Part shown: one piece after another, positions 7,495 to 23,929 of the stretch
Position numbering within the stretch: position 1 is the stretch's first letter
Layout of the letters: each line of letters starts with the position of its first letter
Assembly (NCBI GenBank): GCA_009841115.1
Contig: VXML01000062.1
Coordinates: 64,030-128,029, forward strand
Origin: Gemmatimonadota bacterium
Lineage (GTDB): Bacteria > Latescibacterota > UBA2968 > UBA8231
Direction: 5' to 3'
DNA length: 64,000 bases
Program-made: the position numbers and the translations under genes
Notes under the pieces: model-generated
Database searches by the model: none
Told to the model about the DNA's origin: nothing
What the model saw: the letters and a program-made list of their open reading frames with translations, nothing else

Positions 7495-7674
7495 GGGAAC
7501 CTGTCGTTGGTCGATGGCGCGGAGCGAAATGGGCACCCGTCGATGGGTATCACCTCATCTTTTAATGAAAAAAAGATAGATACCTTCATCAACTGCAATT
7601 CTCTAGACAACACCCAATGCGGCTACCCTCTGATGCTCATCATTGTCGTCTAGCGTTTGCGGCGTAGCGAACAG

Positions 7675-7733
7675 AAAAGCCGTCTGAAAATTCCCAGCGA
7701 TTACTTGGCGCTGTGAATTCTCAGACGGCTTTT
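7675..7733. terminator. Bidirectional intrinsic terminator after Cache gene 1
   Basis: AAAAGCCGTCTGA (7675-7687) and TCAGACGGCTTTT (7721-7733) form a perfect 13-bp stem bounded by A and T runs, so it can stop transcripts from either side. It lies downstream of the minus-strand Cache gene at 7828-9033 and upstream of the sulfatase. Near-copies follow the Cache genes at 12463 and 13735. Confidence 0.8.
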
Positions 7734-7739
7734 CTTAGG

Positions 7740-7827
7740 CTAACGCTTCCTACCGAACTCGACGGTCAACCCCTCGACGGCGTCGCCTAGGACCGTTGCC
7801 TCCACTTCCGTACGGGTAACGGCGCGT
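7740..7827 (-). pseudogene. Remnant of a C-terminal extension like that of Cache gene 5
   Basis: Directly past the stop of the 7828-9033 gene, the minus strand reads AVTRTEVEATVLGDAVEGL in another frame. This nearly matches TVTRTEVEATVLGDAVEGL in the intact gene at 13735-15375. After about 27 residues it jumps to bases matching the 3' flank of that gene (GCTAACGCTT, CTACCGAAC). The simplest reading is that gene 1 once carried the same long tail and lost it through an early stop, a frame change and deletion of most of the tail. Confidence 0.75.
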
Positions 7828-9033
7828 CTAAAAGCGACTTTTGAGCTGTCCCCAGGTGGCCTCCCGGGTAACGGTCGAGGCATCATCGGGTGCGCGCCCA
7901 TAGAAACCCGACCCAATGATGAAGTTGAGTGGGACTGTGCGTCCGCCTGCACTGAATTCACCTTTGAACTCGCGTGCGTATCCCACCTTGGGGATGTCGG
8001 CACTGTCGGTATCGTCGGTGGGATCGTCGAAGTAATACTCCACGAAGCCGCCTTCCGGGTTACTTTTTGCTGCTTCGATGACCTGAGGCAGAATGAGCTC
8101 TCCAGTAACGACGTCGCGGACCGTGGCTACCAGAGGCCGAAGCTCGAATCTGTCCGGAAACGCACCGTGAAACGTGATGATGTTGCTGGTAAGATCCAAG
8201 ACGTAGAGGTACACCGAACCGTGTCTCCAGGGCCCGTTCTCATCCCGCATGGCGTTCCTAGCTTTATAGAAAGCGGCTGGATCGCCGCTCAGTGAGATTT
8301 CGCGATACCGCTCCCCCGCCTGCGTGACGAAGGCCTTCAGGGTTTCTCGGTCCACTACGTCCCTGGCGGTAATGGTCGGGTCGCCGTAATCGATGACTTC
8401 TTCAACTACGTGAGATTCGTTGAGATCGAATCCCGCGAGCAGCACGATCGGGGACTGGAAACTGGGCGATATAATTGCGGCGGCATAGCCGGAAGCCCCT
8501 GGGATATCGGGCACATTGAACGGACCGCCATCCCCGGCTACCGCGGCAGCGAAAGCGGCCAGGGCCGCAGCACGGTCGGTGAGGTCGGCTGGGTTGATTC
8601 CCAATGCTTGAAGGATCGCTCCATATATCAAGGGGTTGAGTAGCCGGCCCGACAAGGACATGTCCTTTGCGTGAGCGGATAGCCTGCCGTCGGGCGTCAG
8701 TTGCACGACGTAGGTGGAGCCGGAACGGTACGGCCCCCCCTCCTGCCTATAGAGACATCCAAGGTGCAACATCCTATTCAAACTCGCCGATACTTGGCTA
8801 AGCTCCGGATGATTTTTCAGGGCCAGCGCAAAGTCCATCAGGCTGGCGCTGCCGTCTTCCACCTGTTGCGCTGTCACGCTCGGGTCCGCAGGAGGCGTCA
8901 CGCCAGCAGGGAGTGGACAAGCTTCCTCTGTCTGCGCCAGGGCGGCGTGTGCATTGGGAAAGAGGCCGATCAACACGAGCAGGCCGACAACAAGCATCGA
9001 TGTCGAGGTGGGCAATGTTCGAGCTTTCATCAT
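7828..9033 (-). CDS. Secreted two-module Cache-domain protein (array member 1)
   Basis: 401 residues with a Sec signal peptide ending near ANAHAALAQ. The second half is a clear sCache_2-type module: VVDRETLKAFV, then GPWRHGSVYLYVLD, then EGGFVEYYFDDP, then FIIGSGFYG. The first half is a diverged relative (QVEDGSASLMDFALAL, SGSTYVVQLTPDGRLSAH, an AGFDL strand). Cache domains are extracellular small-ligand sensors normally fused to kinases, cyclases or chemoreceptors, but nothing follows here, so this is a free periplasmic or exported protein. It ends TWGQLKSRF, a motif shared with three neighbours. A strong ribosome site (AAGGAGAA) precedes the ATG. Function is unknown; ligand capture or presenting to a membrane sensor is a guess. 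Confidence 0.85.
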   Translation of the reverse strand: MMKARTLPTSTSMLVVGLLVLIGLFPNAHAALAQTEEACPLPAGVTPPADPSVTAQQVEDGSASLMDFALALKNHPELSQVSASLNRMLHLGCLYRQEGGPYRSGSTYVVQLTPDGRLSAHAKDMSLSGRLLNPLIYGAILQALGINPADLTDRAAALAAFAAAVAGDGGPFNVPDIPGASGYAAAIISPSFQSPIVLLAGFDLNESHVVEEVIDYGDPTITARDVVDRETLKAFVTQAGERYREISLSGDPAAFYKARNAMRDENGPWRHGSVYLYVLDLTSNIITFHGAFPDRFELRPLVATVRDVVTGELILPQVIEAAKSNPEGGFVEYYFDDPTDDTDSADIPKVGYAREFKGEFSAGGRTVPLNFIIGSGFYGRAPDDASTVTREATWGQLKSRF

Positions 9034-9522
9034 GAGGGTTCTCCTTATCGGAAAGGCAAGCTCATTAAATTTACTATGTGATGTTACGCAGCCTTTAGCT
9101 GCTGCAATTTAGTTAATATAAGACTTGTTGTGTGATTTTTATGTGATCTACAAGTCTTTTTTTATGATTTTTTATGATTTTTGTCCAATTACGGTATAAT
9201 TTGGCCTCGCCAAGCCTACCGCGCCTCGAATTCCGTTGTCTCCTCTAGGTAGTCGCCGCCCGATGATCCCATAACCATGGATATCTTGCATCCTGACAGA
9301 GGTAAAGAAAAACCCCCGTGCCAATCTCCCGGCACGGGGGTTTTTCACTACTGCGTAAGTCAGTTACTATATGTCGATACGATAAAACAGAGCTATTATA
9401 AAATCATAAAATCGGCCGTGGTCATCGGGACGCTTCGAGGTTGAAGGTGGGATACTCTCAGCCTAGGAACGGTCTCGACCATGGTCAACCTACTAACATC
9501 CTTTAATTAAAGGAGGTCCACC
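9034..9522. other. Divergent intergenic region with two hairpins and a -10-like TATAAT
   Basis: It separates the minus-strand Cache gene 1 from the plus-strand creatininase gene. The left half is AT-rich, with repeated TTTTTATGATT runs and a hairpin AGACTTGT...ACAAGTCT followed by seven T (about 9121-9167). A TATAAT at 9195-9200 faces plus, with only a weak -35. A strong terminator lies at 9308-9345. No convincing gene. Confidence 0.55.
9308..9345. terminator. Strong intrinsic terminator not attached to any gene
   Basis: AAAAACCCCCGTGCC and GGCACGGGGGTTTTT form a perfect 15-bp stem around an 8-base loop. It sits between two divergent genes, so neither gene ends here. It may close a short plus-strand RNA starting near 9207 or act as a leader attenuator for the creatininase gene, which begins 177 bp downstream. 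Confidence 0.85.
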
Positions 9523-10251
9523 GTGACTGATAACAGGGAAGTTATGCTGCAGAATTACACCCGGCGCGAATTCCGCCAAGGTCTTGAGGCCGGAAAATTC
9601 CAGGCCGCGATCATCCCCACCGGCAGCATTGAGCAGCACCTTGAACACCTGCCCTTTGAACACGATATCGCCTCGTCAACTTGGGTCGCGCGCCAAGCGG
9701 CTCTGCGCATGTACCCAAAAGTGATCGTGGCCGTGCCCATGGCCGTGGGCATTTCCGAGCACCACATGAAGCACAAGGGCAGTCTCACGGCCAAGCCGGG
9801 CTCGTGGCTGGCCGTACTCTTTGACGCGGTGGAATGTTTTGCCCGCCACGGCATTGAGAATATCCTAATCCTCAACGGGCACGGCGGCAATGTGCGACCC
9901 GTGAATAGCATACTCCGCCAATGGCGTCTGTTTTTCGAGTCCACAGCTCCGGGGGTCAATCTGCACTTCCACCCCTATTGGAACTTGATTCCGCGGGCGC
10001 TCATCGACGAGCACATGGTTACCAAAAGTGCGCCGGGACACGCCACGGAATTCGAAACTTCGCTGGCCATGCACATGTTCCCGGAGAAAATTCGTCATGA
10101 CGCCATGCAGGATCAGGAGGACAAGACGCCCTTGGAGGCCGATGCGGAGAAGGGAAGGATCTTATCCGAAGAAGCGGTCAAGCGGACCGTGGAATACCTC
10201 GAGGCGATGATGGAAGGGAAAACCCTGCTGGAGGTGGGGGAGCGGTACTAG
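9523..10251 (+). CDS. Creatininase/creatinine amidohydrolase-family metal hydrolase
   Basis: 242 residues, full length for the family. PTGSIEQH provides Glu37 and His39, HDIASS the Asp48, LNGHGGN the His120, and GHATEFETS a late Glu176; these are the expected two-metal-site residues. Members hydrolyse creatinine, formamide intermediates (MftE, ArfB) or other cyclic amides, so the substrate remains open. Start GTG at 9523 has an excellent ribosome site (AAAGGAGGTCCACC). It is alone on plus within the Cache array and shares the hairpin at 10258-10307 with the convergent Cache gene 2. Confidence 0.9.
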   Translation: MTDNREVMLQNYTRREFRQGLEAGKFQAAIIPTGSIEQHLEHLPFEHDIASSTWVARQAALRMYPKVIVAVPMAVGISEHHMKHKGSLTAKPGSWLAVLFDAVECFARHGIENILILNGHGGNVRPVNSILRQWRLFFESTAPGVNLHFHPYWNLIPRALIDEHMVTKSAPGHATEFETSLAMHMFPEKIRHDAMQDQEDKTPLEADAEKGRILSEEAVKRTVEYLEAMMEGKTLLEVGERY

Positions 10252-10257
10252 CAGAAC

Positions 10258-10307
10258 GACTGGGGGCATCCACAGGCTGTTGCAAGCCTCAGCGGATGCC
10301 CCTAGTC
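10258..10307. terminator. Bidirectional terminator between creatininase and Cache gene 2
   Basis: GACTGGGGGCATCC (10258-10271) pairs with GGATGCCCCTAGTC (10294-10307) with one G-U pair; an inner AGGCT...AGCCT can extend the structure. AGTTTT follows on plus. It lies between convergent genes and can serve both. Confidence 0.75.
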
Positions 10308-10336
10308 AGTTTTAGGACTTGTTCAAGTGCGTTTGT

Positions 10337-10900
10337 CTAAAATTGACTTTTGAGCTGTCCCCAGGATTGGTCTGCAACGGCAGTAGAAGCGGGTTCCGGA
10401 AAAAAGCCAGCGCCCAAGACGAAATCTTGGCCGAGAGCGGAATAGGGGATGGCGTAGCTCACTTTAGGAGAGCCGGTGTCCCCTTCTATCTGCGGATCAG
10501 GCCAAATATACTCGACGTAGCCGCCGCCCTCAGCCGTTACTGAGATGAGCTCTTGGACCATTTTGACTCCATTGACGTCTTCGAGGTCATACAAGTTTTG
10601 TCCCTCAAGGCTTGGATCCGCTCCGTGCAGGATGAAGAGACCTTCAGTGGAGAAAAGAAAGAGGTAAACAGATCCCTGCTTCCAAGGTCCTTCGGTTCTG
10701 AATTCCTGCAAGATATTCAGGTATTCGGGCAAGGTGGAGGCTTTATCCCCGTACGCCTTTGCCGCGAGTACAAATGCCTTCAGGGTTTCTCGGTCCACTA
10801 CATCACCAGCCGTTATCTCCGAGTCTTGGGCGATGGCGGGATGCACGGCGAGGAAAAGGGCGGCCAACGTCAGAATGAGTACTGCTGTCAGACGCTTCAT
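10337..10900 (-). CDS. Secreted single-module Cache-domain protein (array member 2)
   Basis: 187 residues. MKRLTAVLILTLAALFLAVHPAIAQ is a textbook Sec signal peptide. One sCache_2-type module follows: VVDRETLKAFV, EGPWKQGSVYLFLFSTEGLFILHGADP, GQNLYDLEDVNGVKMVQELI, GGGYVEYIWPDP, SPKVSYA, FVLGAGFF. It ends SWGQLKSQF like members 1, 3 and 4. The start at 10900 was chosen because AAAGGAGCTCATC precedes it; an upstream ATG at 10963 lacks one and would spoil the signal peptide. This is the smallest member and shows the basic unit. A putative promoter (TGGATT, 17 bp, TATCTT) ends 33 bp upstream of the start. Confidence 0.88.
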   Translation of the reverse strand: MKRLTAVLILTLAALFLAVHPAIAQDSEITAGDVVDRETLKAFVLAAKAYGDKASTLPEYLNILQEFRTEGPWKQGSVYLFLFSTEGLFILHGADPSLEGQNLYDLEDVNGVKMVQELISVTAEGGGYVEYIWPDPQIEGDTGSPKVSYAIPYSALGQDFVLGAGFFPEPASTAVADQSWGQLKSQF

Positions 10901-10933
10901 GATGAGCTCCTTTCTTTTGCTAATTATGGAATT

Positions 10934-10969
10934 AAGATACGTCTGACTTTGCAAAAAATCCATCAGACA
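10934..10969 (-). promoter_or_regulatory. Promoter-like block shared by Cache genes 2 and 4
   Basis: On minus, TGTCTGATGGATT, 14 bases, then ACGTATCTTA. The region above Cache gene 4 (13570-13605) has TGTCTAATAGATT, exactly 14 bases, then ACGTATCTTA. Read as -35 TGGATT/TAGATT and -10 TATCTT, the spacer is 17 bp in both, which fits a sigma-70 promoter. Conservation is visible; promoter function is inferred. Confidence 0.55.
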
Positions 10970-11002
10970 AGCCCATCTGCAAAAGATATGTTCTGCACAA
11001 AG

Positions 11003-12067
11003 CTAAAAGTCACTTTTGAGCTGTCCCCAGGACTGACCTTCCACTGCCGTAGCGGCTCCCGTATATAACCCGGAACCAAAGATATACTCCTGACCTTGGT
11101 ACGTTGCAAGCTCAGCGTAGCTAATTTTGGGCGAACCAGTGTCTTCGTCTCCGACCACCGCCGGATCGTCGAAGTTATACTGGACAAAACCACCGCCCTC
11201 CTTGGCCACTCTAATAAGTTCTCGGAGGTACTTAACTCCGTTTACGTCCGTCTTATCGAGGTCGCTCGTATTGAGCTCTAACGACCGATCGACAGCGTGA
11301 AATAACACGAAACCGTCCGTGGAGAATACGAAGAAGTAAACGGAGTCTTTTCTCCAGGGACCGCCTTCTTCCCTGAAGATATCCACGTGTTGCAGGAATC
11401 GTTCGAGCCCGATTTGGTCTAAGAGAGTGATAAAGCTCCCCATTGCACCTTGCACATAAGCTTTGAGCGTCTCCCGATCTACTACGTCGGCGGCGGTGAC
11501 CTCGGGCATGGGAACGAGAGACGGATCTAGCGGAGGGAAGCCGGCTTGCGCGACCTCCTGATAATAGCCGCCGATTAGGATTATCGGAGTTCCGGTTGTG
11601 CCGGAGGTATAGCTAGTGGCATAGGCGATTTTGGGGGTGTCCTCGTCGCCCTCTTGGGCGGGATCGTCCCAGTAATACTCGACAAAACCGCCGCCGGCAT
11701 TCGCGGCTTCGATGAGGGCTTGCACCACCTTGTTCCCGCGGGCGTCTTCGATGTCGTTTAGGTACTTGCCGTTGGCATTCGGATCACCAGCGTGAAATAA
11801 CACCGTGCCGTTTGGCTGCATGAGGATGAGGTACGTGTTGCCGTGCTTCCAAGCACCCTCGGTGCTGATAGTGGTAGTATAAGGCACGAAATCGTTCGGA
11901 TCGGTAAAGGTCGCCGACCATGCTCTTGCGCCTTCGACAAAAGCCTGTAGGGTTTCCCGGTCCACCACCTCGCTGGCGGTTGTCTCTGGAGATTGAGCTA
12001 CGGTGGGAGAGACGGCGACGAAGAGGCCGGCCAGCCCTAAGATGAGTGCTGTGGTTAGACGCTTCAC
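11003..12067 (-). CDS. Secreted two-module Cache-domain protein (array member 3)
   Basis: 354 residues from the GTG at 12067, which has AGAAAGGAATCATC in front and begins VKRLTTALILGLAGLFVAVSPTVAQ, a Sec signal. The longer open frame upstream is the promoter region read through. Two sCache_2-type modules follow: the first from ETTASEVVDRETLQAFV to the GGYYQ strand, the second from EVTAADVVDRETLKAYV to FGSGLYTG. Each has the GNTYLI/DSVYFF strand, the acidic E-D-x-x-G turn, GGGFVEYYWDDP and PKIAYA. It ends SWGQLKSDF. No transmembrane segment or output domain is visible. The spacer to member 2 holds no evident terminator. Confidence 0.88.
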   Translation of the reverse strand: MKRLTTALILGLAGLFVAVSPTVAQSPETTASEVVDRETLQAFVEGARAWSATFTDPNDFVPYTTTISTEGAWKHGNTYLILMQPNGTVLFHAGDPNANGKYLNDIEDARGNKVVQALIEAANAGGGFVEYYWDDPAQEGDEDTPKIAYATSYTSGTTGTPIILIGGYYQEVAQAGFPPLDPSLVPMPEVTAADVVDRETLKAYVQGAMGSFITLLDQIGLERFLQHVDIFREEGGPWRKDSVYFFVFSTDGFVLFHAVDRSLELNTSDLDKTDVNGVKYLRELIRVAKEGGGFVQYNFDDPAVVGDEDTGSPKISYAELATYQGQEYIFGSGLYTGAATAVEGQSWGQLKSDF

Positions 12068-12125
12068 GATGATTCCTTTCTGTTGATAAGTGTGCATGAC
12101 ATGAGAAAAGACATACTTAATTCCA

Positions 12126-12365
12126 CATCTTAATGCACAATCTGTGCCAAGGCGTAAAAAAACAGGTAAGTCCTTTCTATAAAGGAGGTTATATGATCGA
12201 GGAGTGGAGGTGGGGAAATTCCATAATGACGCATAATGCAACAATCAAATAGCCCTGAAGGAGAGCAGGAAGAAGCCAACTATTTGAAATTATGTGGGTT
12301 ATGGAATGGTTTGTTGGAAAATCTGGCGAGATGGGCTGATTTGCGACATTGTCGCATCCTGCAAC
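12126..12365 (-). repeat. Upstream region of Cache gene 3, duplicated at 2565-2802
   Basis: Noncoding block ending about 60 bp before the start of gene 3. It contains GCACAATCTGTGC (12135-12147), a small perfect inverted repeat that could be an operator and is degraded in the 2.6-kb copy. The other copy is in opposite orientation with no gene behind it. Confidence 0.7.
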
Positions 12366-12386
12366 ATTTGTAGCGCAGCAATAGAA

Positions 12387-12429
12387 AAGCCGTCTGAAAA
12401 TCCCGGCACTGCGAATTCTCAGACGGCTT
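12387..12429. terminator. Intrinsic terminator after Cache gene 4
   Basis: AAGCCGTCTGA (12387-12397) pairs with TCAGACGGCTT (12419-12429); an inner AATTC-like extension is possible. It is a near-copy of the hairpin at 7675-7733, including the GTGAATTC/GCGAATTC loop edge. Confidence 0.75.
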
Positions 12430-12462
12430 CTTAGCTAATGCTTCCGCGTTCAGCGCAAGCTG

Positions 12463-13527
12463 CTAAAAGTTACTTTTGAGCTGTCCCCAAGACGGTTCTT
12501 CCACCGCTGTAGGGTCTCCCGTATATATCCCAGCACCGACGATAATCTCCCGGCCAGTTCTCGTGGTAAAGGATTGGGCGTAACTAATTTTGGGCGAACC
12601 GGTGTCTTCGTCTCCCGTTACTGACGGATCATCGAGGTAGTATTCGACGTAGCCGCCCCCTGCTCTAGCTGCCTTGATCAGTTCTTGGACGACCTTGACC
12701 CCGTTGATGTCCTCAGAGTCGAGCACGGTCCGGGCTTCCTGTGTCCTATTCGCTCCGTGAAAAATCACGTATCCGTTAGAGGTAAAGATGAACAGGTAGA
12801 TAGAGCCATGCCGCCAATCTCCTTCTTCTGCTCTGAAGACGTTCAGGATGTCCCTATAGCGCTCGGCGCCATGCTCCTGCACTGCGGCGACATAGGCCTG
12901 AAGCGCCCCTATTACAAAAGCTCGGAGGCTTTCGAGGTCCGTAACGTCGGCGGCCCTCACCTCCGGAGTCGGAATGAGCGAGAGGTCGTACACGGGCGGA
13001 GGAACATGTGATACATCCTGATAATATCCTCCAATCAGGACGTTCGTGTTGTCGTATGCCCGGCCGGAAAACTGGGTGGCATAGGCGATCTTGGGGGTGT
13101 CTTCGTCGCCTTCCTGCGCTGGGTCGTCCCAGTAATACTCAACGTGGCCGCCTGTCTCCGAGGCGGCGATGAGATCCTGCACGACTGTATTCCCACGATC
13201 GTCTTCGAGCGCAAGGAGGTTCTTGTCTCCCGCATCCTCATCGTCGGCGTGGAACAAGACGGTCCCTTCATCGCTCAGTAGAATGAGGTACAGGTTCCCG
13301 TGCCTCCATTCTCCTTCTTCTCTGAGGCTGGAGATAAACGGCGTCAGCAGTTCTGTCCCCGCGCTTATCTCCTCAATGCGCGATTTCGCGCCTTCCACGA
13401 AGGCTTTTAGCGTTTCCGCGTCCGAGACCTCGCTGGCGGTTACCGCCGGAGATTGGGCCGCGGCGGGATGCGCGGTGGGTAAGAGGCTGGCTAGCCCGAG
13501 AATGAGTACTGCGATCAGACGCTTCAT
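12463..13527 (-). CDS. Secreted two-module Cache-domain protein (array member 4)
   Basis: 354 residues, the same length and layout as member 3. MKRLIAVLILGLASLLPTAHPAAAQ is a Sec signal peptide. Module 1 has VSDAETLKAFVEG, WRHGNLYLILLSDEGTVLFHADD and GGHVEYYWDDP; module 2 has VTDLESLRAFVIG, WRHGSIYLFIFTSNGYVIFHGANR, GGGYVEYYLDDP and IIVGAGIYTG. It ends SWGQLKSNF. In this member VVDRETL is replaced by SDAETL or TDLESL, so the modules are diverging. GAGAGGAGCCACC precedes the ATG. It is followed by its own terminator and preceded by the promoter block at 13570-13605. Confidence 0.88.
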   Translation of the reverse strand: MKRLIAVLILGLASLLPTAHPAAAQSPAVTASEVSDAETLKAFVEGAKSRIEEISAGTELLTPFISSLREEGEWRHGNLYLILLSDEGTVLFHADDEDAGDKNLLALEDDRGNTVVQDLIAASETGGHVEYYWDDPAQEGDEDTPKIAYATQFSGRAYDNTNVLIGGYYQDVSHVPPPVYDLSLIPTPEVRAADVTDLESLRAFVIGALQAYVAAVQEHGAERYRDILNVFRAEEGDWRHGSIYLFIFTSNGYVIFHGANRTQEARTVLDSEDINGVKVVQELIKAARAGGGYVEYYLDDPSVTGDEDTGSPKISYAQSFTTRTGREIIVGAGIYTGDPTAVEEPSWGQLKSNF

Positions 13528-13569
13528 GGTGGCTCCTCTCTATTGGAAGATATAATTGATATTTAGTAT

Positions 13570-13605
13570 AAGATACGTACGATCTTAGAATAAATCTATT
13601 AGACA
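13570..13605 (-). promoter_or_regulatory. Promoter-like block of Cache gene 4
   Basis: Minus-strand TAGATT, 17 bp, TATCTT, within a longer block that matches the one above Cache gene 2 in sequence and spacing. The start codon lies 42 bp downstream. Confidence 0.5.
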
Positions 13606-13639
13606 TGCTCCTTCTGTCGTCTAGTATTTGCAACAAACA

Positions 13640-13704
13640 AAGAAGCCATCTGAAAACCCCGTCGCCCTCGTCAAGGCTTATTAGGTGTCTCCAGATGGCT
13701 TCTT
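13640..13704. terminator. Intrinsic terminator after Cache gene 5
   Basis: AAGAAGCCATCTG (13640-13652) and CAGATGGCTTCTT (13692-13704) form a perfect 13-bp stem. It shares the left-arm pattern of the other Cache terminators, and its flank (GTCGTCTAG, ATTTGC to the left; TTAGCTAACGCTT to the right) matches the flank of the one at 7675. Confidence 0.8.
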
Positions 13705-13734
13705 AGCTAACGCTTTCTACCGAACCGTTCGGCG

Positions 13735-15375
13735 TTACTTGAGGTAGAGCAGCCGTCGCGTCTGCACTCCGTCAGGATAGCTCAGGCGGGTGATATAGAT
13801 CCCCGACGATAACGAGACACCTTGCTGGTCGCGGGCATCCCACTGGGCTTGGTAGGAGCCAGCGGCTTGGAACTGATCCACCAATGTGCGTACCGGCTGG
13901 CCCAGCACATTGTAGATCACCAACTGCACCGGACCGGGGCTGAACAAGTGGTAAGCAATCTGGGTGGCGCTGTTGAAGGGGTTGGGCACATTGGGTGCCA
14001 GACCGCTGGTTGCTACCACGGCCTTGGCTGCGGCTAGTGGTTCGACCCGCACGATTCTCACGTCGCCGCCCAGCGGCAGTTCCAAGACTTGGCGTCGGTC
14101 GCGATTGAGGGGAATGCTGTGCCACTGGCCGACGATTTCGCCAGCGGCGTTGCGGGCGCGAGCCCGATAGTAACCACTCACCCCACGTGTGCTGGAGATA
14201 GTCAGGGATACGTGGCCAGTAGCATCGGTGAACGCGTTCCAGGCATAATTGGGCTGGCGGCCGGCAATGGCGCGAGAAAACTCGACGGCTAACCCCTCGA
14301 CGGCGTCGCCCAAGACCGTTGCTTCTACTTCCGTGCGGGTAACAGTCTTCAGGGCACGGTCGAGGTCACCAGTATAGAACCCGGCACCGACGACATATTC
14401 CCGACCCTGGAACGTGATTAGCTCCGCATAACTCACCTTGGGCGAGCCGGTGTCTTCGTCTCCTGTCACCGCCGGATCGTCGAAGTAATACTCGAGAAAG
14501 CCGCCGCCCGCCCTAGCCAGCTTGATAAGTTCCTGGGTGACCATGATTCCGTTGATATCCTCCCAATCGGACGCATCTCGCAGTTCTCGCGCCCGGTCGG
14601 CACCGTGGAAGATTACATGGCCCTCCGTGGTGAACATAAAGAAGTAGATGGAGCCCTGCCTCCATGGCCCTCCTTCTACTCTGAAGATATCCTGATGTTG
14701 CAGGAGTTCATCGGCCCCGAACTGTTCTAGGGCATTGGTATAACTGTCCCGCGTCCCGTGTACAAAGGCCCTGAGGGTTGCTCGATCTACCACGTCAGCG
14801 GCCGTGACCTCGGGGGGGTGGATTATCGACGGATCAAAGGTCGCCGCAACGGCTCGCGGAGGGGCTTGGTAATAGCCGCCAATCAGGACCACCGTGGTAG
14901 CCGTTGTTCCGGAGACATAGCTGGTGGCGTAGGCGATCTTGGTGATCTCTTCGTCCCCTTCCTGCTCTGGATCGTCCCAGTAGTACTCGACGTGGCCTCC
15001 GCCCATGTCGGCTGCCGCGAGGAGTTGCTGCACAACCTTGTTCCCACGGGCGTCTTCTACTTCGTACAGGCTCTTGCCGTTCACAGATGGTTCATCGGCG
15101 TGAAAGATCACCGTGCCGTTCGGCAACATGAGAACGAGGTACGTGTTGCCGTGCTTCCAGTCACCCTCGGTACTGATAGCGATAGTATATGGCGCGAAAT
15201 CGTTGGGATCGGTAAAAGTCTCCGACCATGCCCTTGCGCCTTCTACAAAGGCTTGTAGCGTTTCCGCGTCCACTACCTCGCTAGCTGTTACCTCTGGGGT
15301 TTGGGCTACAGCGGGATGCGCGGCGAGCAAGAGACTGGCTAGCCCCAGAATGAGTACTGCTGTCAAACATTTCAT
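13735..15375 (-). CDS. Secreted two-module Cache protein with type IX-like C-terminal domain (array member 5)
   Basis: 546 residues. A Sec signal peptide (MKCLTAVLILGLASLLLAAHPAVAQ) is followed by two Cache modules as in members 3 and 4, ending near VGAGFYTGD. Instead of the WGQLKSxF end, the chain continues with a linker (TVTRTEVEATVLGDAVEGLAVEFSRA), a beta-rich segment and a final domain beginning LAPNVPNPFNSATQIAYHL, then IYNVLGQPVRTLVD, GSYQAQWDARD and LSSGIYITRL, ending LLYLK. That last part resembles type IX secretion sorting or FlgD-Ig domains, suggesting surface attachment or secretion across the outer membrane. It is probably the ancestral long form, since gene 1 keeps a scar of the same tail. 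Confidence 0.88.
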   Translation of the reverse strand: MKCLTAVLILGLASLLLAAHPAVAQTPEVTASEVVDAETLQAFVEGARAWSETFTDPNDFAPYTIAISTEGDWKHGNTYLVLMLPNGTVIFHADEPSVNGKSLYEVEDARGNKVVQQLLAAADMGGGHVEYYWDDPEQEGDEEITKIAYATSYVSGTTATTVVLIGGYYQAPPRAVAATFDPSIIHPPEVTAADVVDRATLRAFVHGTRDSYTNALEQFGADELLQHQDIFRVEGGPWRQGSIYFFMFTTEGHVIFHGADRARELRDASDWEDINGIMVTQELIKLARAGGGFLEYYFDDPAVTGDEDTGSPKVSYAELITFQGREYVVGAGFYTGDLDRALKTVTRTEVEATVLGDAVEGLAVEFSRAIAGRQPNYAWNAFTDATGHVSLTISSTRGVSGYYRARARNAAGEIVGQWHSIPLNRDRRQVLELPLGGDVRIVRVEPLAAAKAVVATSGLAPNVPNPFNSATQIAYHLFSPGPVQLVIYNVLGQPVRTLVDQFQAAGSYQAQWDARDQQGVSLSSGIYITRLSYPDGVQTRRLLYLK

Positions 15376-15722: not shown

Positions 15723-17165
15723 TTACGGTTGATTCCGGCTGGCTACGTATTGAGATAGGAGAGCAAGGTTGTGGTTGAAGGTGCGGCAGGAGATGACTTG
15801 GGCGACGATGGGAGCATGGCGGTCTTCGGGATTTCTCAGGCGGCCTTCTTCTATCCAGCGGCCCTCTGCGTCGAGGGCGTCGATAATGGCTTGGATCCGT
15901 TCCGCAGCGACCGGGCGCACTTGGGCGCGTGCGGCTAGGATCGCCTCGCGGCCTTCGGCGAGGATGCGCTGGTACAGGCTTTCAATGCGATCCGTGCGGT
16001 TGCCCACTTTAAAGGCATAGTGCGTCGGTAGGTCTGCATCGCTGTAGGTGAGCGCGTATTCTCTGGTAAAGTAGAGCGGTCGGTTGGTCTGCAATTCGTA
16101 GAACCGAGCCATGCGCCCATCGGGCAATTGCGCTGCTTTAGCCCAAGCTAAGGCGCGGGGAATAGGTTCGAGAAAGCGCGGCTCGCCGTATGCGAGATAG
16201 AGTTCCAACAGGATTTGCATCACGCCAAAACTCTCGCCGCCGGTGATGGCGGGTGGTTCAAATCTGCGCGCCCAAGCTGGCTCCATCGCCAAGTTGTACT
16301 GCTGTGCCCAAGCTGGTTGCGGATCGGGCATCTGGGCTAGGATGATGAAGTCGCCGCCTCGTTCGGCTGCGTGGTGCCAGCGCTCGTCGCCGTAGATTTT
16401 GTGCGCTTCGATCATGGTTTCGATGACGTCGGCGATGGCGTTGTCGTTAAAGGTGTAGTACGCGAGGTAGCGCTGTTTGGGATACTGGCGGGGCCAAGTC
16501 GCCGGATAGCGCGCCTTCTGGACGGGAAATTGGCTGGGATCGGCCCATTCGCTGTAGCGCTGGGGCCAAGCGCCGTTGGGGTATTGGGCTTTGAGCAGGG
16601 ATTCCAGTCCATAGAGGACGGCGCGGTGTATATCAGCATCGGCAAAGTCGAGGTGCTGATCGACCTGCATGAGCAGGCGCAGAGCGCTTTGCGTATTGTC
16701 GTCGTCGAGGGTGGTGCGATTGCGGCGTTTGCCAGTCGTGCGGTCGCCCTGTTCGACATCGCGCCGGTAGTGCCATTTTTTGCTCTGCTCAGGATCAAAG
16801 TCGATCCGGTAATCCCAACCGCCCGAAGATAGTTGTCCCCAGACGAGGGCTTGCGCCGCCTCGACTGCGCCGTTGAGGAAGAGGGTGTCGCCAGTGGCGT
16901 CGTAGGCTTGGAGGAGAGCCATGCCAACCGACGGGGTGCCTGGGGGCTGGACCCAGATGGTGGTCGGCGATGCGATGCCTTCGCCTTCGCGGCGGGTAAA
17001 GTCGCTTTGATAGAGCCAGAGATAGCCGCCGTTGGTGGCCACTTGGTCGCGAAAATAGCGCGTCGCTTGGACCATGGTCTCCACGGCGGCTCGGTGCAAA
17101 ACTTCGTCGCTGTGGAGTGGTGTACTGCATAACAATAGGAGGAATAGCGAGGCGATTTTGTGCAT
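15723..17165 (-). CDS. Secreted pectate lyase-family protein (PL10-like)
   Basis: 480 residues with a Sec signal (ASLFLLLLCSTPLHS). The chain is helical, as in alpha/alpha-barrel pectate lyases. TIWVQPPGTPSVGMALLQAYDATGD and LSSGGWDYRIDFDP recur in proteins annotated as pectate lyase. A DDDNTQSALRLL turn and YPNGAWPQRYSEW give the acidic calcium site and the GxWPQxY signature of PL10-type enzymes. The C-terminal third (about 330-480) is a helical extension. It would cleave polygalacturonate outside the cytoplasm, which fits the PL22-like enzyme and uronate genes at 52-59 kb. It is transcribed toward the Cache array and is separated from Cache gene 5 by 347 AT-rich bases. Confidence 0.8.
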   Translation of the reverse strand: MHKIASLFLLLLCSTPLHSDEVLHRAAVETMVQATRYFRDQVATNGGYLWLYQSDFTRREGEGIASPTTIWVQPPGTPSVGMALLQAYDATGDTLFLNGAVEAAQALVWGQLSSGGWDYRIDFDPEQSKKWHYRRDVEQGDRTTGKRRNRTTLDDDNTQSALRLLMQVDQHLDFADADIHRAVLYGLESLLKAQYPNGAWPQRYSEWADPSQFPVQKARYPATWPRQYPKQRYLAYYTFNDNAIADVIETMIEAHKIYGDERWHHAAERGGDFIILAQMPDPQPAWAQQYNLAMEPAWARRFEPPAITGGESFGVMQILLELYLAYGEPRFLEPIPRALAWAKAAQLPDGRMARFYELQTNRPLYFTREYALTYSDADLPTHYAFKVGNRTDRIESLYQRILAEGREAILAARAQVRPVAAERIQAIIDALDAEGRWIEEGRLRNPEDRHAPIVAQVISCRTFNHNLALLSQYVASRNQP

Positions 17166-19350: not shown

Positions 19351-21963
19351 TCAGTACGCGACGGCAATGGTTTTCAGGACCTGTTCGCCATCGATGCCAG
19401 CACCCTCGGTGTCGGTGTCGATCCGCAAGCGAGCGTAATACACTCCGGGCGGCACCAAGGCTCCTGCGTCATCCCTGCCATCCCAGCCGATGGCGTAGGA
19501 GCCGGTGCTCAAATCCCGCTGTTCCACTAACCGACGCACTCGACGGCCCGCCAAATCGAAAATTTCCACTTCCGCCGGGCTATCGTCACCTACTCGCACC
19601 ACCTTGAAGGCGAACTGAGCTTGGTCGTTGATGCCGTCGCCGTTGGGCGTAAAGGCGCGAGGTATCACTTCCGCCTCTGTTAGCAGCGAGGTACTCTGCA
19701 CCGCACCGACTAGGGTCGTAGTGTTGCTCTCGATCTCGGCCAGTGCGTTGCCGGCATCGACGCGCTGCCAGTTGTCCGTGCCGGCGTCGCTATTTTTTAA
19801 GAGCGCCCGCATCACCGCACCCGTCGAAAACAACGCCGTTGCGAAATCGAGCCGCAGCACTTCTACGCCTGAGCGAGGGTCCACCGGCGGGAAGGCCAAT
19901 TGCAGACTGTCCGCGCGCGTCTGCATCACCTCCACATCGGGTATAGTTAGACTGGACAAGTCGGCGCTGGGTCCGAAGGCGTCCTCGGCACCGGCATATA
20001 GGCCCACAAAGCGCAGTGGCATATCGGACGGTGCCACCAACAGCAACTGGTCGAAGCCTGGATCTCGGCTTCCGAAGTCTGGACGCACATAGAACGAAAA
20101 TAATTGCTCCTTACCCAGTTGGTCCACCTGAAACGGCGAGATTTCGCCAGTGATGCTCTGTGCCACGGGATTGCTAAAGTTGAGCCGAATCGAGCGCAAG
20201 GTCGGACTGACCTCAGGATCGTTCGACAGCAAGGTCGCCCGCAAAGTCAGAAACTCGCGCGGACTGGGCGAAGTCACCGGCGAACCGGTCGGATCTTCGT
20301 ACGGCTGGCTCCACGGCTCCCAGTCGGAACCGGCGGTTTCTTCGGCGACGATTTCGCCGCGGAAGATCGACAGCAGCTTGTCGTAGTCTTCCTTGGATAC
20401 TTCTGTGCCATCTTTTTTGAAGTAATGCAGGGTTTCACTCAACTCGTTGCCAGTACGGGTCTGGATCAGCACGCTCGTGCCGGGCGGCGTGTCGGCATCC
20501 CACTCGACGGAGAGCAGGTTGCGGCTGCCTCCCAAACGGATCAGATCGGAGGTCAGCGTTACTTCGGGCAGGAAACCTCGCCCGTATAGCTGTAGCTCTG
20601 CTGGCTGCCCAGTGGCTCCGCCTTTGCCCGTAGAACTGGTGCTTTCGAATTGCTTCCAGACAAAGCGAAAGAAACGGGCTTTGAGCCGCGCGAAATTGTT
20701 GCCTTCGTAAAAGCCGAAGCCCAAGGCCGAAATCCCACCGCCGCCGCGCTGCTCGCGATCGACCGCGGTATTCCACTTGATGCTGCCGTCGGCGGCCAGC
20801 GTGCCGTCCGAAAAATCCAGCCGGTAATTGGAAAACCTAGACCCGCCGTAGGCCATCCTGAAGGCGTCGATCCAGTAAAAGGCACCCAAATCGAAAAGTA
20901 CCTGCCCTTCGGGCGACTTGAGCGATCCCCGACCGTAGGTGTAGATGAACTGCACTTTGCTTTCGATCTGCCCGTCAATCAAGCTATTGATCGATGCCGT
21001 CTGGGAAGCCGTGCCAAAACCGCCCCTGTCCAACGCTCCGGTGAGGATCTCGTCGCCTTCTGCCCACACTTCCAACTCGGCCAGCCGTGGACGCTCGATC
21101 CGGTAATAGCGCACCGATCCTTGTTGTCCCTCAAGTTGGCGGTGTACCTCTTGGGGCACTAGGGTCTCGCGCCCGTTCGCATGGAGCTTAAAGTAATCGA
21201 CCTCGCCCCGCTCGTCGGCCGCGAGCTGATCGTATTCGGTCTGAGTGACTTCACGACCCCGGCCAAAATTGCTGCCAGTTACTACCACCTGCACAAAGCG
21301 AATGCCGACCCCCTCGAACTCGCGCTCCAATTTCAGGTCAATCTCAAAGAGCCGCTGTTCCTTGTTGGGCTTGAGGGTCCGCCACATGGTGGTGTATTCG
21401 AGAGAAGGCCCTCGGCCACCCGTGGGCTTGTTGCCTTGGGACACCAGCACGTCGAATTGCAGGAAGGGATCGCCCAATGCCTCGTCGACGAACTTCAGCA
21501 CGATGCTCTTGGCAATTACTAGCCGCCCCAGATCGACGGTAAACCACCACTGGTCGGCCAGTTCGCCCTCGCCGGTGGGTGGGTCGGGCTGCCAGTACGT
21601 TCCCAAGTCGCCGTCGAAAAGGTTGACCACGTCCGCCCGATTGCCAGCGGTTCCAGCTTGGATGCCGTCTAGGACGGTAATTTCTTCGGGAGCCTTTTTT
21701 ATTCCGGCGGGTGGGCGGGCTTGCAGATAAGCGGCAATGTCCCGCACCGCGTTGATGTCGCGGTGCAACTGGTGCGGCGTCAAGGCACCACTGGACGAAA
21801 TTTCCACTACCCCTTGAGGAAAAGTCCAATTGCGCCAGTGCGCAGCGCTGTTGACCACTACTTGGTCGGACGTCACTCGGTGGCCCGCCCCCTGACCGTA
21901 CGCTGCCGTACCTAGAACCACCGACAAGACCGCCCAACTTATGCACTTCAGAATCCATTCCAT
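19351..21963 (-). CDS. Large secreted discoidin-like protein with FlgD-type C-terminal domain (pair A, long)
   Basis: About 870 residues. The ATG at 21963 (MEWILK) starts a Sec signal; a GTG at 21975 is an alternative. The N-terminal half has an F5/8-type C (discoidin) pattern: NLFDGDLGTYWQPDPP then WFTVDLGRLVIAKSIVLKF, a second round with SLIDGQIESKVQF and VLFDLGAFYWIDAFRM. The middle is beta-rich. The end, AFTPNGDGINDQAQFAFKV, VEIFDLAGRRVRRLVEQ, GWDGRDDAGALVPPGVYYARL, is a FlgD_Ig/gliding-type domain closing with IAVAY. It is a paralogue of the gene at 42950-45298 and follows its short partner by a 28-bp spacer. A role in binding carbohydrate or building the outer surface is inferred from the domains. 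Confidence 0.85.
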   Translation of the reverse strand: MEWILKCISWAVLSVVLGTAAYGQGAGHRVTSDQVVVNSAAHWRNWTFPQGVVEISSSGALTPHQLHRDINAVRDIAAYLQARPPAGIKKAPEEITVLDGIQAGTAGNRADVVNLFDGDLGTYWQPDPPTGEGELADQWWFTVDLGRLVIAKSIVLKFVDEALGDPFLQFDVLVSQGNKPTGGRGPSLEYTTMWRTLKPNKEQRLFEIDLKLEREFEGVGIRFVQVVVTGSNFGRGREVTQTEYDQLAADERGEVDYFKLHANGRETLVPQEVHRQLEGQQGSVRYYRIERPRLAELEVWAEGDEILTGALDRGGFGTASQTASINSLIDGQIESKVQFIYTYGRGSLKSPEGQVLFDLGAFYWIDAFRMAYGGSRFSNYRLDFSDGTLAADGSIKWNTAVDREQRGGGGISALGFGFYEGNNFARLKARFFRFVWKQFESTSSTGKGGATGQPAELQLYGRGFLPEVTLTSDLIRLGGSRNLLSVEWDADTPPGTSVLIQTRTGNELSETLHYFKKDGTEVSKEDYDKLLSIFRGEIVAEETAGSDWEPWSQPYEDPTGSPVTSPSPREFLTLRATLLSNDPEVSPTLRSIRLNFSNPVAQSITGEISPFQVDQLGKEQLFSFYVRPDFGSRDPGFDQLLLVAPSDMPLRFVGLYAGAEDAFGPSADLSSLTIPDVEVMQTRADSLQLAFPPVDPRSGVEVLRLDFATALFSTGAVMRALLKNSDAGTDNWQRVDAGNALAEIESNTTTLVGAVQSTSLLTEAEVIPRAFTPNGDGINDQAQFAFKVVRVGDDSPAEVEIFDLAGRRVRRLVEQRDLSTGSYAIGWDGRDDAGALVPPGVYYARLRIDTDTEGAGIDGEQVLKTIAVAY

Positions 21964-21991
21964 ATCTCGCACCACTCGATGAGTGTTCAGA

Positions 21992-23929
21992 TCAATAAAC
22001 TAGCGAAACCACTTGTTCTTCCGATTTTATCCCCTCGTCGCTGTTCACTTCTAAGCGTAGGATATAGAGACCCGGCGGCACTAACTTGGCTTGGGCGTCG
22101 CGGCCGTCCCAAGTTACTGCGAAACTGCCACTAGTCGCGGTGCCGCGGTATAGCTCACTGATGCGCCGCCCCGCAAGATCGTACAGATCAATAGCTACCG
22201 GTACAGCGCTCAGATTGAGCAATTCGTACTGCATTTTTAGCTGGTCGTTGACCCCGTCTCCATTCGGGGTGAATGACCGCGTGGTCAAACGCAGTGCATT
22301 GACCGCTTTTTTGTCGATGTCTATCAAACCGACGCGCAAGGTGTTGCTATCGACCAGTTGATCGGCATCTCCTGCCGTGACCTCCTGATGCACTTCGTGG
22401 GGCTGCTCGCTATCGAAAATTCGCGCTGCGAATACCGTGCCAAACTGGAAGACTTGAGCTTGGAAATCCACTTCCAGCAATTCGTTGGTGCGCTGCAGGT
22501 CCATGCGGGGAATTCGCAACTCAAATTCATTTTCTTCCACTCGGACCTCAGTGAAATCCACTGGCAAGCCTTCTAGGCGGACCTGATCAATGCTGGCGAC
22601 CCGAGCTGACGTTTGGATCTCAATGCTGTCAAAACCCAGATCAGTGCCGGTTAATCGCGGCAGGATCTTGTAGGTAAACTGCGTCACTGCACCCGCCGAC
22701 ACCTCCACTGGGACGATCTCGGCTAGGGCTTGGGATGCCACCGGCGGATTGGATATTTCAAATTGCAGGTAATGCAGCCACCCGCCCGCTTCTGCGGTAG
22801 AAGAGAACTGGGCGGCAAACTGGACGAATTGCCGCGGCTTGTTGCCGGCAAGGTCGCCGCGGCCGAGGACCAGATCGTACGGAGGGCTCCAAGTTTGCCA
22901 GTTTTCGGTGTCCGGCGTGATTCCGGCTCGCTCCCCTTTGTCCAGTTTGTTGTACGTGGACAAAACCAAGGCTTTGCCGTCGCTATAGCGCGTAGTCTCG
23001 TCGCCGCGGAAGGTTTTGCGCCAGTACGTGTTGGGATCGGAATCGTCGCCGCTGCGCATAGTCAGATCAATCGACGCGCCTTCGTCTTCCTGCGCGGACC
23101 AGTTGAGTCGGCCCAAGCTGACGGGTTGGCCTAGGTCGATCACATTGGAGACGTAGGTGGCATGTGGTGCAAAACCGGAGCCGTAAATTTCAAATTCGGC
23201 GATTTCCCAAGCCCCGCGGATGTTGGCCGGTGCTTCGAACAGGATGTTGCGGATGGGCCGATCAGGCATTTCGAGGACGATATCGGAGCGGGTGTTCTCG
23301 GTAGCGTTGAGGACGATTTCAAAGTCTTTCCGCGCGCCTGGCGGCCGCCTTGCCCACTTCTCGCCTACTAGGTATTCCCGGGTTCCGTCCTTGAGCGGGT
23401 CGCCGTCGTTGATGCCGACTATAAAGGTCTGAATAAAGCGATCTACAAGGTGCTTTTCGCGGGGATAGAAGCGCACCCGGTCGATGTTGAATAACCCGCC
23501 TAGATCGAATACCAGCACTTTGTTTTCTATCGCGCCGTAGTCTCCACCCCAATCGCCGTCGCCGAGAAAGTGGGTGGTGGGGTCGCCGTCGAACATCGGC
23601 GCGTCGCGGGCGGGAAAATCGGCCCAACCCACGATCGAGCGCAGCGTTTCGATCTTTCCGCCCCGTTCATCCAGTAATGGTGTCAGGTTGACTGCGGGGT
23701 CTAGTTGCTCGGGCGCGAGGGTTGTGCTGATCTCCGTCAGCAGAGTGCTGCCGTGCTGCTTGGCGTCGATATCGGCCCATTCCAGTTGGATGAAGTCGAA
23801 AGGCGCGTCGCGCTCGGGCGGCGGCAAGTCGGAGCCGCCGATGCGGTAGATGGTCAGCGCCTGGCTCACGTCGGTCAGAATGGTGCAAAATACCAAGGCT
23901 ATCAGCGGCAATACCAGACGTCGGCTCAT
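21992..23929 (-). CDS. Secreted discoidin-like protein with FlgD-type C-terminal domain (pair A, short)
   Basis: 645 residues with an N-terminal Sec signal (LVLPLIALVFCTILTDVSQA). A discoidin-type domain shows MFDGDPTTHFLGDGDWGG and LVFDLGGLFNIDRVRFYP; then WEIAEFEIYGSG, a strand-rich middle (WQTWSPPYDLVLG), and a C-terminal FTPNGDGVNDQLKMQYELL, IDLYDLAGRRISELY, TWDGRDAQAKLVPPGLYILRLEV unit ending VSLVY. It is a paralogue of 40927-42945 across its length (for example the NTYWRKTFRGDE and PNIYHEYTDRGGEE segments). It leads a likely three-gene operon with the long partner and the HXG PhyH gene. Confidence 0.85.
   Translation of the reverse strand: MSRRLVLPLIALVFCTILTDVSQALTIYRIGGSDLPPPERDAPFDFIQLEWADIDAKQHGSTLLTEISTTLAPEQLDPAVNLTPLLDERGGKIETLRSIVGWADFPARDAPMFDGDPTTHFLGDGDWGGDYGAIENKVLVFDLGGLFNIDRVRFYPREKHLVDRFIQTFIVGINDGDPLKDGTREYLVGEKWARRPPGARKDFEIVLNATENTRSDIVLEMPDRPIRNILFEAPANIRGAWEIAEFEIYGSGFAPHATYVSNVIDLGQPVSLGRLNWSAQEDEGASIDLTMRSGDDSDPNTYWRKTFRGDETTRYSDGKALVLSTYNKLDKGERAGITPDTENWQTWSPPYDLVLGRGDLAGNKPRQFVQFAAQFSSTAEAGGWLHYLQFEISNPPVASQALAEIVPVEVSAGAVTQFTYKILPRLTGTDLGFDSIEIQTSARVASIDQVRLEGLPVDFTEVRVEENEFELRIPRMDLQRTNELLEVDFQAQVFQFGTVFAARIFDSEQPHEVHQEVTAGDADQLVDSNTLRVGLIDIDKKAVNALRLTTRSFTPNGDGVNDQLKMQYELLNLSAVPVAIDLYDLAGRRISELYRGTATSGSFAVTWDGRDAQAKLVPPGLYILRLEVNSDEGIKSEEQVVSLVY

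Follow-up and report, generated by a model that had tools for sequence, protein, structure and literature searches.

What would an array of neighbouring genes for exported proteins built of Cache domains, and of no output domain, be for? Bacteria have no commoner extracellular sensor than the Cache domain, and it is treated as a part of membrane receptors. The question is raised by a stretch of 64,000 nucleotides (the window) from contig VXML01000062.1 of a bacterium titled Gemmatimonadota and placed by GTDB in Latescibacterota (GenBank assembly GCA_009841115.1), where five open reading frames (ORFs) of this kind occupy 7828-15375 of the minus strand, the strand of all window features below unless marked otherwise. 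The answer that we consider on balance probable is that the array encodes exported, surface-displayed, carboxylate-binding Cache proteins of a sponge symbiont, and that these have spread horizontally; the surface location of the tagged forms, the ligand and the benefit we infer.

The five ORFs, designated here genes A to E, lie where the original prediction, made from the DNA letters alone, had placed them, and its description of five exported proteins with one or two Cache modules each, nine in all, is borne out by the ORFs and by Pfam. All nine modules are of sCache_2/dCache_2 type, one of them (the first of gene A) is degenerate, and an output domain is absent. Each product begins with a signal peptide. 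Gene A (7828-9033) continues with two Cache modules, of the type found across phyla, and ends in WGQLKSRF; gene B (10337-10900, the ORF being drawn to 10963) has a single sCache_2 module and ends in WGQLKSQF; genes C (11003-12067, with a GTG start and the ORF drawn to 12244) and D (12463-13527) have two sCache_2 modules each and end in WGQLKSDF and WGQLKSNF. Four proteins thus have the WGQLKSxF ending that had been noticed, in the form WGQLKS[RQDN]F. Gene E (13735-15375) has two sCache_2 modules followed by a linker and a tail, described earlier as type IX-like, that is a type A sorting domain of the type IX secretion system (T9SS), FlgD_ig-like, at 13750-13986; it matches TIGR04183 at 35.2 bits against a cut-off of 23, and A-D have no TIGR04183 tail.

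The identity of the modules is secure. Pfam matches across genes A-E range from 8e-6 to 3e-29 for dCache_2 and from 0.02 to 7e-27 for sCache_2, with B-E above the curated cut-off and A alone slightly below it (25.7 vs. 26.5 bits). The closest solved structures are Cache domains of methyl-accepting chemotaxis proteins (MCP), namely 2qhk, 4exo and 4k08 (E down to 1.6e-15), and 5g4y is matched as well. AlphaFold2 gives confident two-module models of D and A (pLDDT, the predicted local distance difference test, of 89 and 88, respectively), for both of which Foldseek returns sCache structures, 4k08 at E 9e-9. Profile search, solved structures and predicted models therefore agree on the Cache fold that had been proposed, and no other fold appeared.

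A receptor, by contrast with the sensors that these domains resemble, is not in evidence. The 6.16-Mb Latescibacterota genome holds 11 sCache_2 matches on four contigs, all in ORFs of 208-570 amino acids. The Cache proteins of the window and those fetched from other contigs start with a signal-peptide-like segment, and the chain ends after the Cache modules or the tail; no receptor output (a transmembrane anchor with HAMP, MCP or kinase) was found in the window genes or in the genome's other examined sCache_2 proteins. Apart from ABC and SDR-type families, which are common, no partner-like neighbour, such as a cognate sensor or transporter, recurs from one phylum to another. Because these ORFs are short and no shared neighbour suggests a partner, the earlier suggestion that the proteins feed a sensor is unsupported, and the possibility that they are fragments of membrane sensors also fails; the other option offered at the time, surface proteins, is the one that the evidence favours, the location itself being reasoned from the delivery modules described below.

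The ligand pocket appears to have been retained. In PscD the ligand carboxylate is hydrogen-bonded by Tyr90, His103, Tyr143 and Lys156 (PMC5062169), and in the alignment eight window modules out of nine have Y, H, Y and K at the equivalent positions. Among 50 relatives of gene A, the second module has the two tyrosines and the lysine in every case and the histidine in 48; of the four, Tyr and His alone are left in the first module. Judged by these residues, the ligand would be a small carboxylate or a carboxylate-bearing group.

Relatives of the window family were sought with its peptide patterns in 84,980 species genomes. The scan gave 118, of which the best 80 were retained; the loci kept number 76, and the 57 named genomes that hold them have titles reading Latescibacterota, Gemmatimonadota, Acidobacteriota, Pseudomonadota (alpha and gamma), Cyanobacteriota, Binatota, Dadabacteria, Myxococcota and others. 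When gene A was compared with 19 such genomes, the best protein identity was 51-67% in most, and its DNA is 75-77% identical to genes in Bryobacterales and Alphaproteobacteria bins. In the tree of relatives the phyla are intermixed, with short branches; a single Latescibacterota clade is rejected (approximately unbiased test, p 0.013), as is a single Pseudomonadota clade (p 8e-11). A scan of viral contigs gave no relative, so that by this test the module is not phage-borne. These comparisons are best read as horizontal spread of gene A's double-Cache module among sponge symbionts from many phyla.

What follows the Cache pair differs among these relatives. A PF03797 autotransporter barrel is present in alpha- and gammaproteobacteria, cyanobacteria, Myxococcota and some bins titled Gemmatimonadota and Latescibacterota, the class being assigned by a sequence heuristic for relatives without a Pfam scan; Pfam places it over the cut-off in five loci (L172, L154, L176, L163 and L142) and finds none in the window genes. 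A T9SS tail follows the pair in Latescibacterota and Gemmatimonadota, and the WGxxK tag in Latescibacterota. Since the barrel and the T9SS tail are known surface or secretion routes, the module would work outside the cell and the tag would do an equivalent job, and this is our main argument. The autotransporters of L142 (7563-13319), L135 (7218-11582) and L141 carry at least two tandem double-Cache units per protein and reach 1919 amino acids, and three Acidobacteriota proteins of about 940-1035 amino acids (L115, L116, L158) consist almost wholly of repeated Cache-like modules. In a Dadabacteria protein (L145, 6537-9107) two double-Cache units are each followed by a cysteine-alanine, hydrophobic and basic segment that by eye resembles a CTERM anchor. 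Spondin-like flanks, considered for the Cache protein L080, had no Pfam support and were dropped.

The tags of genes A (TGGGGACAGCTCAAAAGTCGCTTTTAG, 7828-7854), B (10337-10363), C (11003-11029) and D (12463-12489) represent one form of a C-terminal pattern, [ST]-W-G-x-[ILV]-K-x-x-[FY](x). Searching the genome in frame, as had been proposed, did turn up more tagged proteins: the pattern matched 12 times, its reversed control twice. The 12 comprise the four Cache genes and others, among them exported proteins from different families with endings such as ATGVEASTWGQIKSSF, TSVEANSWGRIKSQF and TTAVEAESWGRIKAQYQ. The four tagged non-Cache proteins searched against Pfam belong to no family there, nor do the two searched against NCBIfam. 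The idea that the ending is a Cache-specific feature is thereby rejected; it is general on exported proteins in the phylum. Further genomes of this genus and further families have it as well, mostly as WGxIKxLF[RK], but in families f3 and f4 its count scarcely differs from the control. One and the same heuristic calls a signal-peptide-like start in 36 of 39 tag-bearing ORFs and in 41 of 131 from the background, a comparison weakened by the heuristic being home-made and by the inclusion of orthologues in the tag set. In the AlphaFold2 model of D the tag region (342-351) is disordered. The same genome encodes the T9SS translocon SprA (SprA_N) and 84 type A tails alongside the tag, which may be a T9SS signal or something else. 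That it marks lineages lacking T9SS was considered and rejected, SprA and type A tails being present in all 12 genomes tested, tagged or untagged. Further exported Cache proteins of this genome carry variant tags (WGQLKSRQ at G000:C66:268061, WGSLKGRV at C60:57698 and WGSLKEPSP at C1:24002). In related genomes a Cache paralogue has a stop directly before the expected tag (L086, 6835-7885; L087, 3686-4757; L088; L089, 12290-13370); in L086 and L087 the WGQLKS tag is present out of frame after that stop, which we read as recent tag loss.

Gene A records an exchange of one tail for the other. It is 90% identical in DNA over 1.17 kb to a T9SS-tailed gene (L101/L144) from another genus of the family, and exactly where the two diverge lies an insert of 42 nucleotides (7823-7864), absent from L101, which holds the tag and the stop codon between 10-bp repeats, copies of CCGTTACCCG at 7865-7874 and 7813-7822 (7813-7874 in all). 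After the insert come about 57-65 nucleotides of T9SS-tail linker, an untranslated relict (7756-7820) with 89-94% DNA identity to the linker that gene E and its relatives have ahead of their T9SS tail. Beyond it lies the 3' region of an E-type gene, and the rest of the tail has been deleted. A stretch of 31 nucleotides of A, tag included, is identical to a tagged Cache gene in a genome of the same genus. Read most simply, this reflects the entry of a tag cassette into a T9SS-tailed gene, followed by deletion of the dead tail.

The genomes carrying the module seem to be largely those of sponge bacteria. Isolate codes tie 49 of the 57 to sponge studies, including that of Ca. Synechococcus spongiarum, a raw count, uncorrected for how common sponge genomes are in the collection; the other eight are untraced, none being shown to be non-sponge. 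Host species for the codes RHO, COS and IRC are given in PMC8163846, with IRC and RHO spelled out in PMC12203066, where SB0677 is also mentioned in a sponge context; jk18x denotes Ircinia (PMC9531527), and the Aplysina bins are described in PMC5649159. The p16x code, belonging to the same accession series, presumably also marks a sponge study, and SB06xx probably stands for metagenome-assembled genomes from I. ramosa. Within Cyanobiaceae 6 of 251 genomes are positive, and in the rpoB tree these six join Ca. S. spongiarum in a single clade that excludes each of the eight negatives included; for a Paracoccaceae bin, 4 of the 397 genomes of its family are positive. The double-Cache family may be exclusive to sponges, and its recurrence in unrelated sponge bacteria points to a putative common role in living inside them. 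Our literature search on Cache domains in sponge symbionts gave a single relevant paper, on Thaumarchaeota (PMC7848895).

Taken together, these observations make it on balance probable that the array proteins cross the outer membrane and then stay on the cell surface, or are shed from it, in a sponge-symbiotic member of Latescibacterota. None of them is a receptor: each module keeps a ligand pocket and lacks a membrane segment or signalling domain. The array grew as a unit of one or two modules was duplicated in tandem. The C-terminus would serve as an interchangeable means of delivery, in E a T9SS type A tail, in A-D the WGxxKxxF tag and, in relatives from other phyla, an autotransporter barrel. 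Their most likely job would be surface binding of a small carboxylate or of a carboxylate-bearing host glycan, and the benefit might be nutrient capture in the mesohyl, or holding on to, or recognition by, host tissue. A tentative extension, quite possible in our opinion and to be held less firmly, is that the surface Cache module is a common, horizontally shared symbiosis trait of sponge bacteria in at least eight phyla, and that WGxxKxxF is an undescribed Latescibacterota targeting signal able to replace the type IX tail.

Several points weigh against this interpretation, beyond the limits already attached to the signal-peptide comparison and to the sponge count. The tag might serve to keep proteins in the periplasm. 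Delivery modules are not universal, as relatives in Acidobacteriota, Binatota and Aminicenantes end in unclassified or no extra domains. Distant free-living members could have escaped a scan based on patterns from the window family, and many forks of the cross-phylum tree are weakly supported. Phylum labels are the submitters' titles and bins may be contaminated; by contig match, two bins whose titles say Gemmatimonadetes (SB0670_bin_29) and Gemmatimonadaceae (COS4_bin_9) fall in the window's own genus and family. Simple contamination is nevertheless argued against by the barrels, which are typical of their lineages, and, for the cyanobacteria, by rpoB.

Of the other explanations, the one that survives best makes the proteins adhesins or host-recognition proteins, with a Cache fold that binds glycans or proteins of the host, for instance through the carboxylates of sialic or uronic acids, rather than free metabolites. 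Repeated modules with surface-delivery tails, tandem duplication and spread in sponge symbionts would all suit such a role, as would the proposal, for sponge Thaumarchaeota, that their Cache domains are candidates for surface recognition (PMC7848895). We regard it as doubtful all the same, as the pocket resembles those of sensors for small C2/C3 carboxylates and Pfam shows no known adhesion domain beside the modules. Distinctly unlikely is the chief idea of the original prediction, in which periplasmic proteins capture a ligand and pass it to a membrane sensor or transporter. The Cache fold, its intact carboxylate pocket and the signal peptides would fit that scheme; it is opposed by the short sCache_2 ORFs (11 of 11) with no receptor output seen, by the lack of a partner-like neighbour common across phyla, by the barrels and T9SS tails of relatives, which deliver beyond the periplasm, and by the reported depletion of chemotaxis genes in Ircinia symbionts (PMC9531527). 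That depletion, the degenerate first module of A and the C-like orthologues with a stop ahead of an out-of-frame tag might instead suggest functionless leftovers of lost chemoreceptors, a very improbable account given pocket residues that are near-invariant across phyla, open frames of up to 1919 amino acids with fitting signal peptides and C-terminal modules, and recurrent amplification and transfer.

Amplification had been suspected from the outset, and tandem duplication is indeed supported: DNA repeats show entire gene units to be duplicated, terminator hairpin included. One such terminator-like hairpin lies 3' of A (7672-7733), and D and E are followed by comparable ones, which fits the copying of complete gene units. 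Genes B and C likely start later than their ORFs, at ATG 10900 and GTG 12067, because B-E have in common a MKRLTAVLILGLA..AQ signal peptide and a ribosome-binding-like site there. Beyond the array, a pectate-lyase-like gene (Pec_lyase, 95 bits) occupies 15723-17165, and its homologues adjoin the Cache array in the Latescibacterota relatives L106-L110, L112 and L119. A long exported protein with FlgD/CHU_C-like (T9SS) and F5/8 type C-like domains by Pfam is encoded at 19351-21975, and another, similar to it by eye, at 21992-23929. The plus strand at 60-1550 reads by eye as the end of a polyketide-synthase-like frame followed by a phosphopantetheinyl-transferase-like gene.

The interest of the array lies in Cache domains that are free of receptors, serving as repeated exported binding modules in hosts with chemotaxis genes reported as depleted. 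One passenger with several delivery modules across phyla amounts to a natural domain-swap experiment; it offers a testable molecular candidate for the convergence of unrelated bacteria on life in sponges, and a route to learning the role of an uncharacterised C-terminal tag.

Among known systems, the sponge Thaumarchaeota are alike in habitat, with Cache domains described as enriched and tied to it; those domains are archaeal, and the part of the paper available mentions no cross-phylum family, tags or barrels (PMC7848895). The T9SS type A substrates (TIGR04183) share their tail with gene E and many relatives, and their SprA with this genome, whereas A-D lack the tail and the passenger is a Cache pair rather than the usual T9SS cargo. 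Type V autotransporters (PF03797) are matched by relatives in Proteobacteria, Cyanobacteria and some bins titled Gemmatimonadota or Latescibacterota, which carry the barrel with the Cache pair as passenger in place of the usual beta-helix; the window genes have no barrel. Short C-terminal sorting tags are known from the PEP-CTERM, GlyGly-CTERM and LPXTG class. WGxxKxxF is like them in being short, conserved and common to unrelated exported proteins, and unlike them in having no hydrophobic segment or basic cluster. In fold, sequence family and the Tyr/His/Tyr/Lys set, the array matches the sCache_2/dCache_2 sensors of chemoreceptors (PscD, 5g4y; Adeh_3718, 4k08; Vibrio parahaemolyticus, 2qhk and 4exo; the CtpM and MctS families). 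Those sensors have a transmembrane helix after the domain and HAMP, MCP or kinase parts, which the array proteins lack; the latter are instead exported, arranged in tandem and fitted with C-terminal delivery modules.

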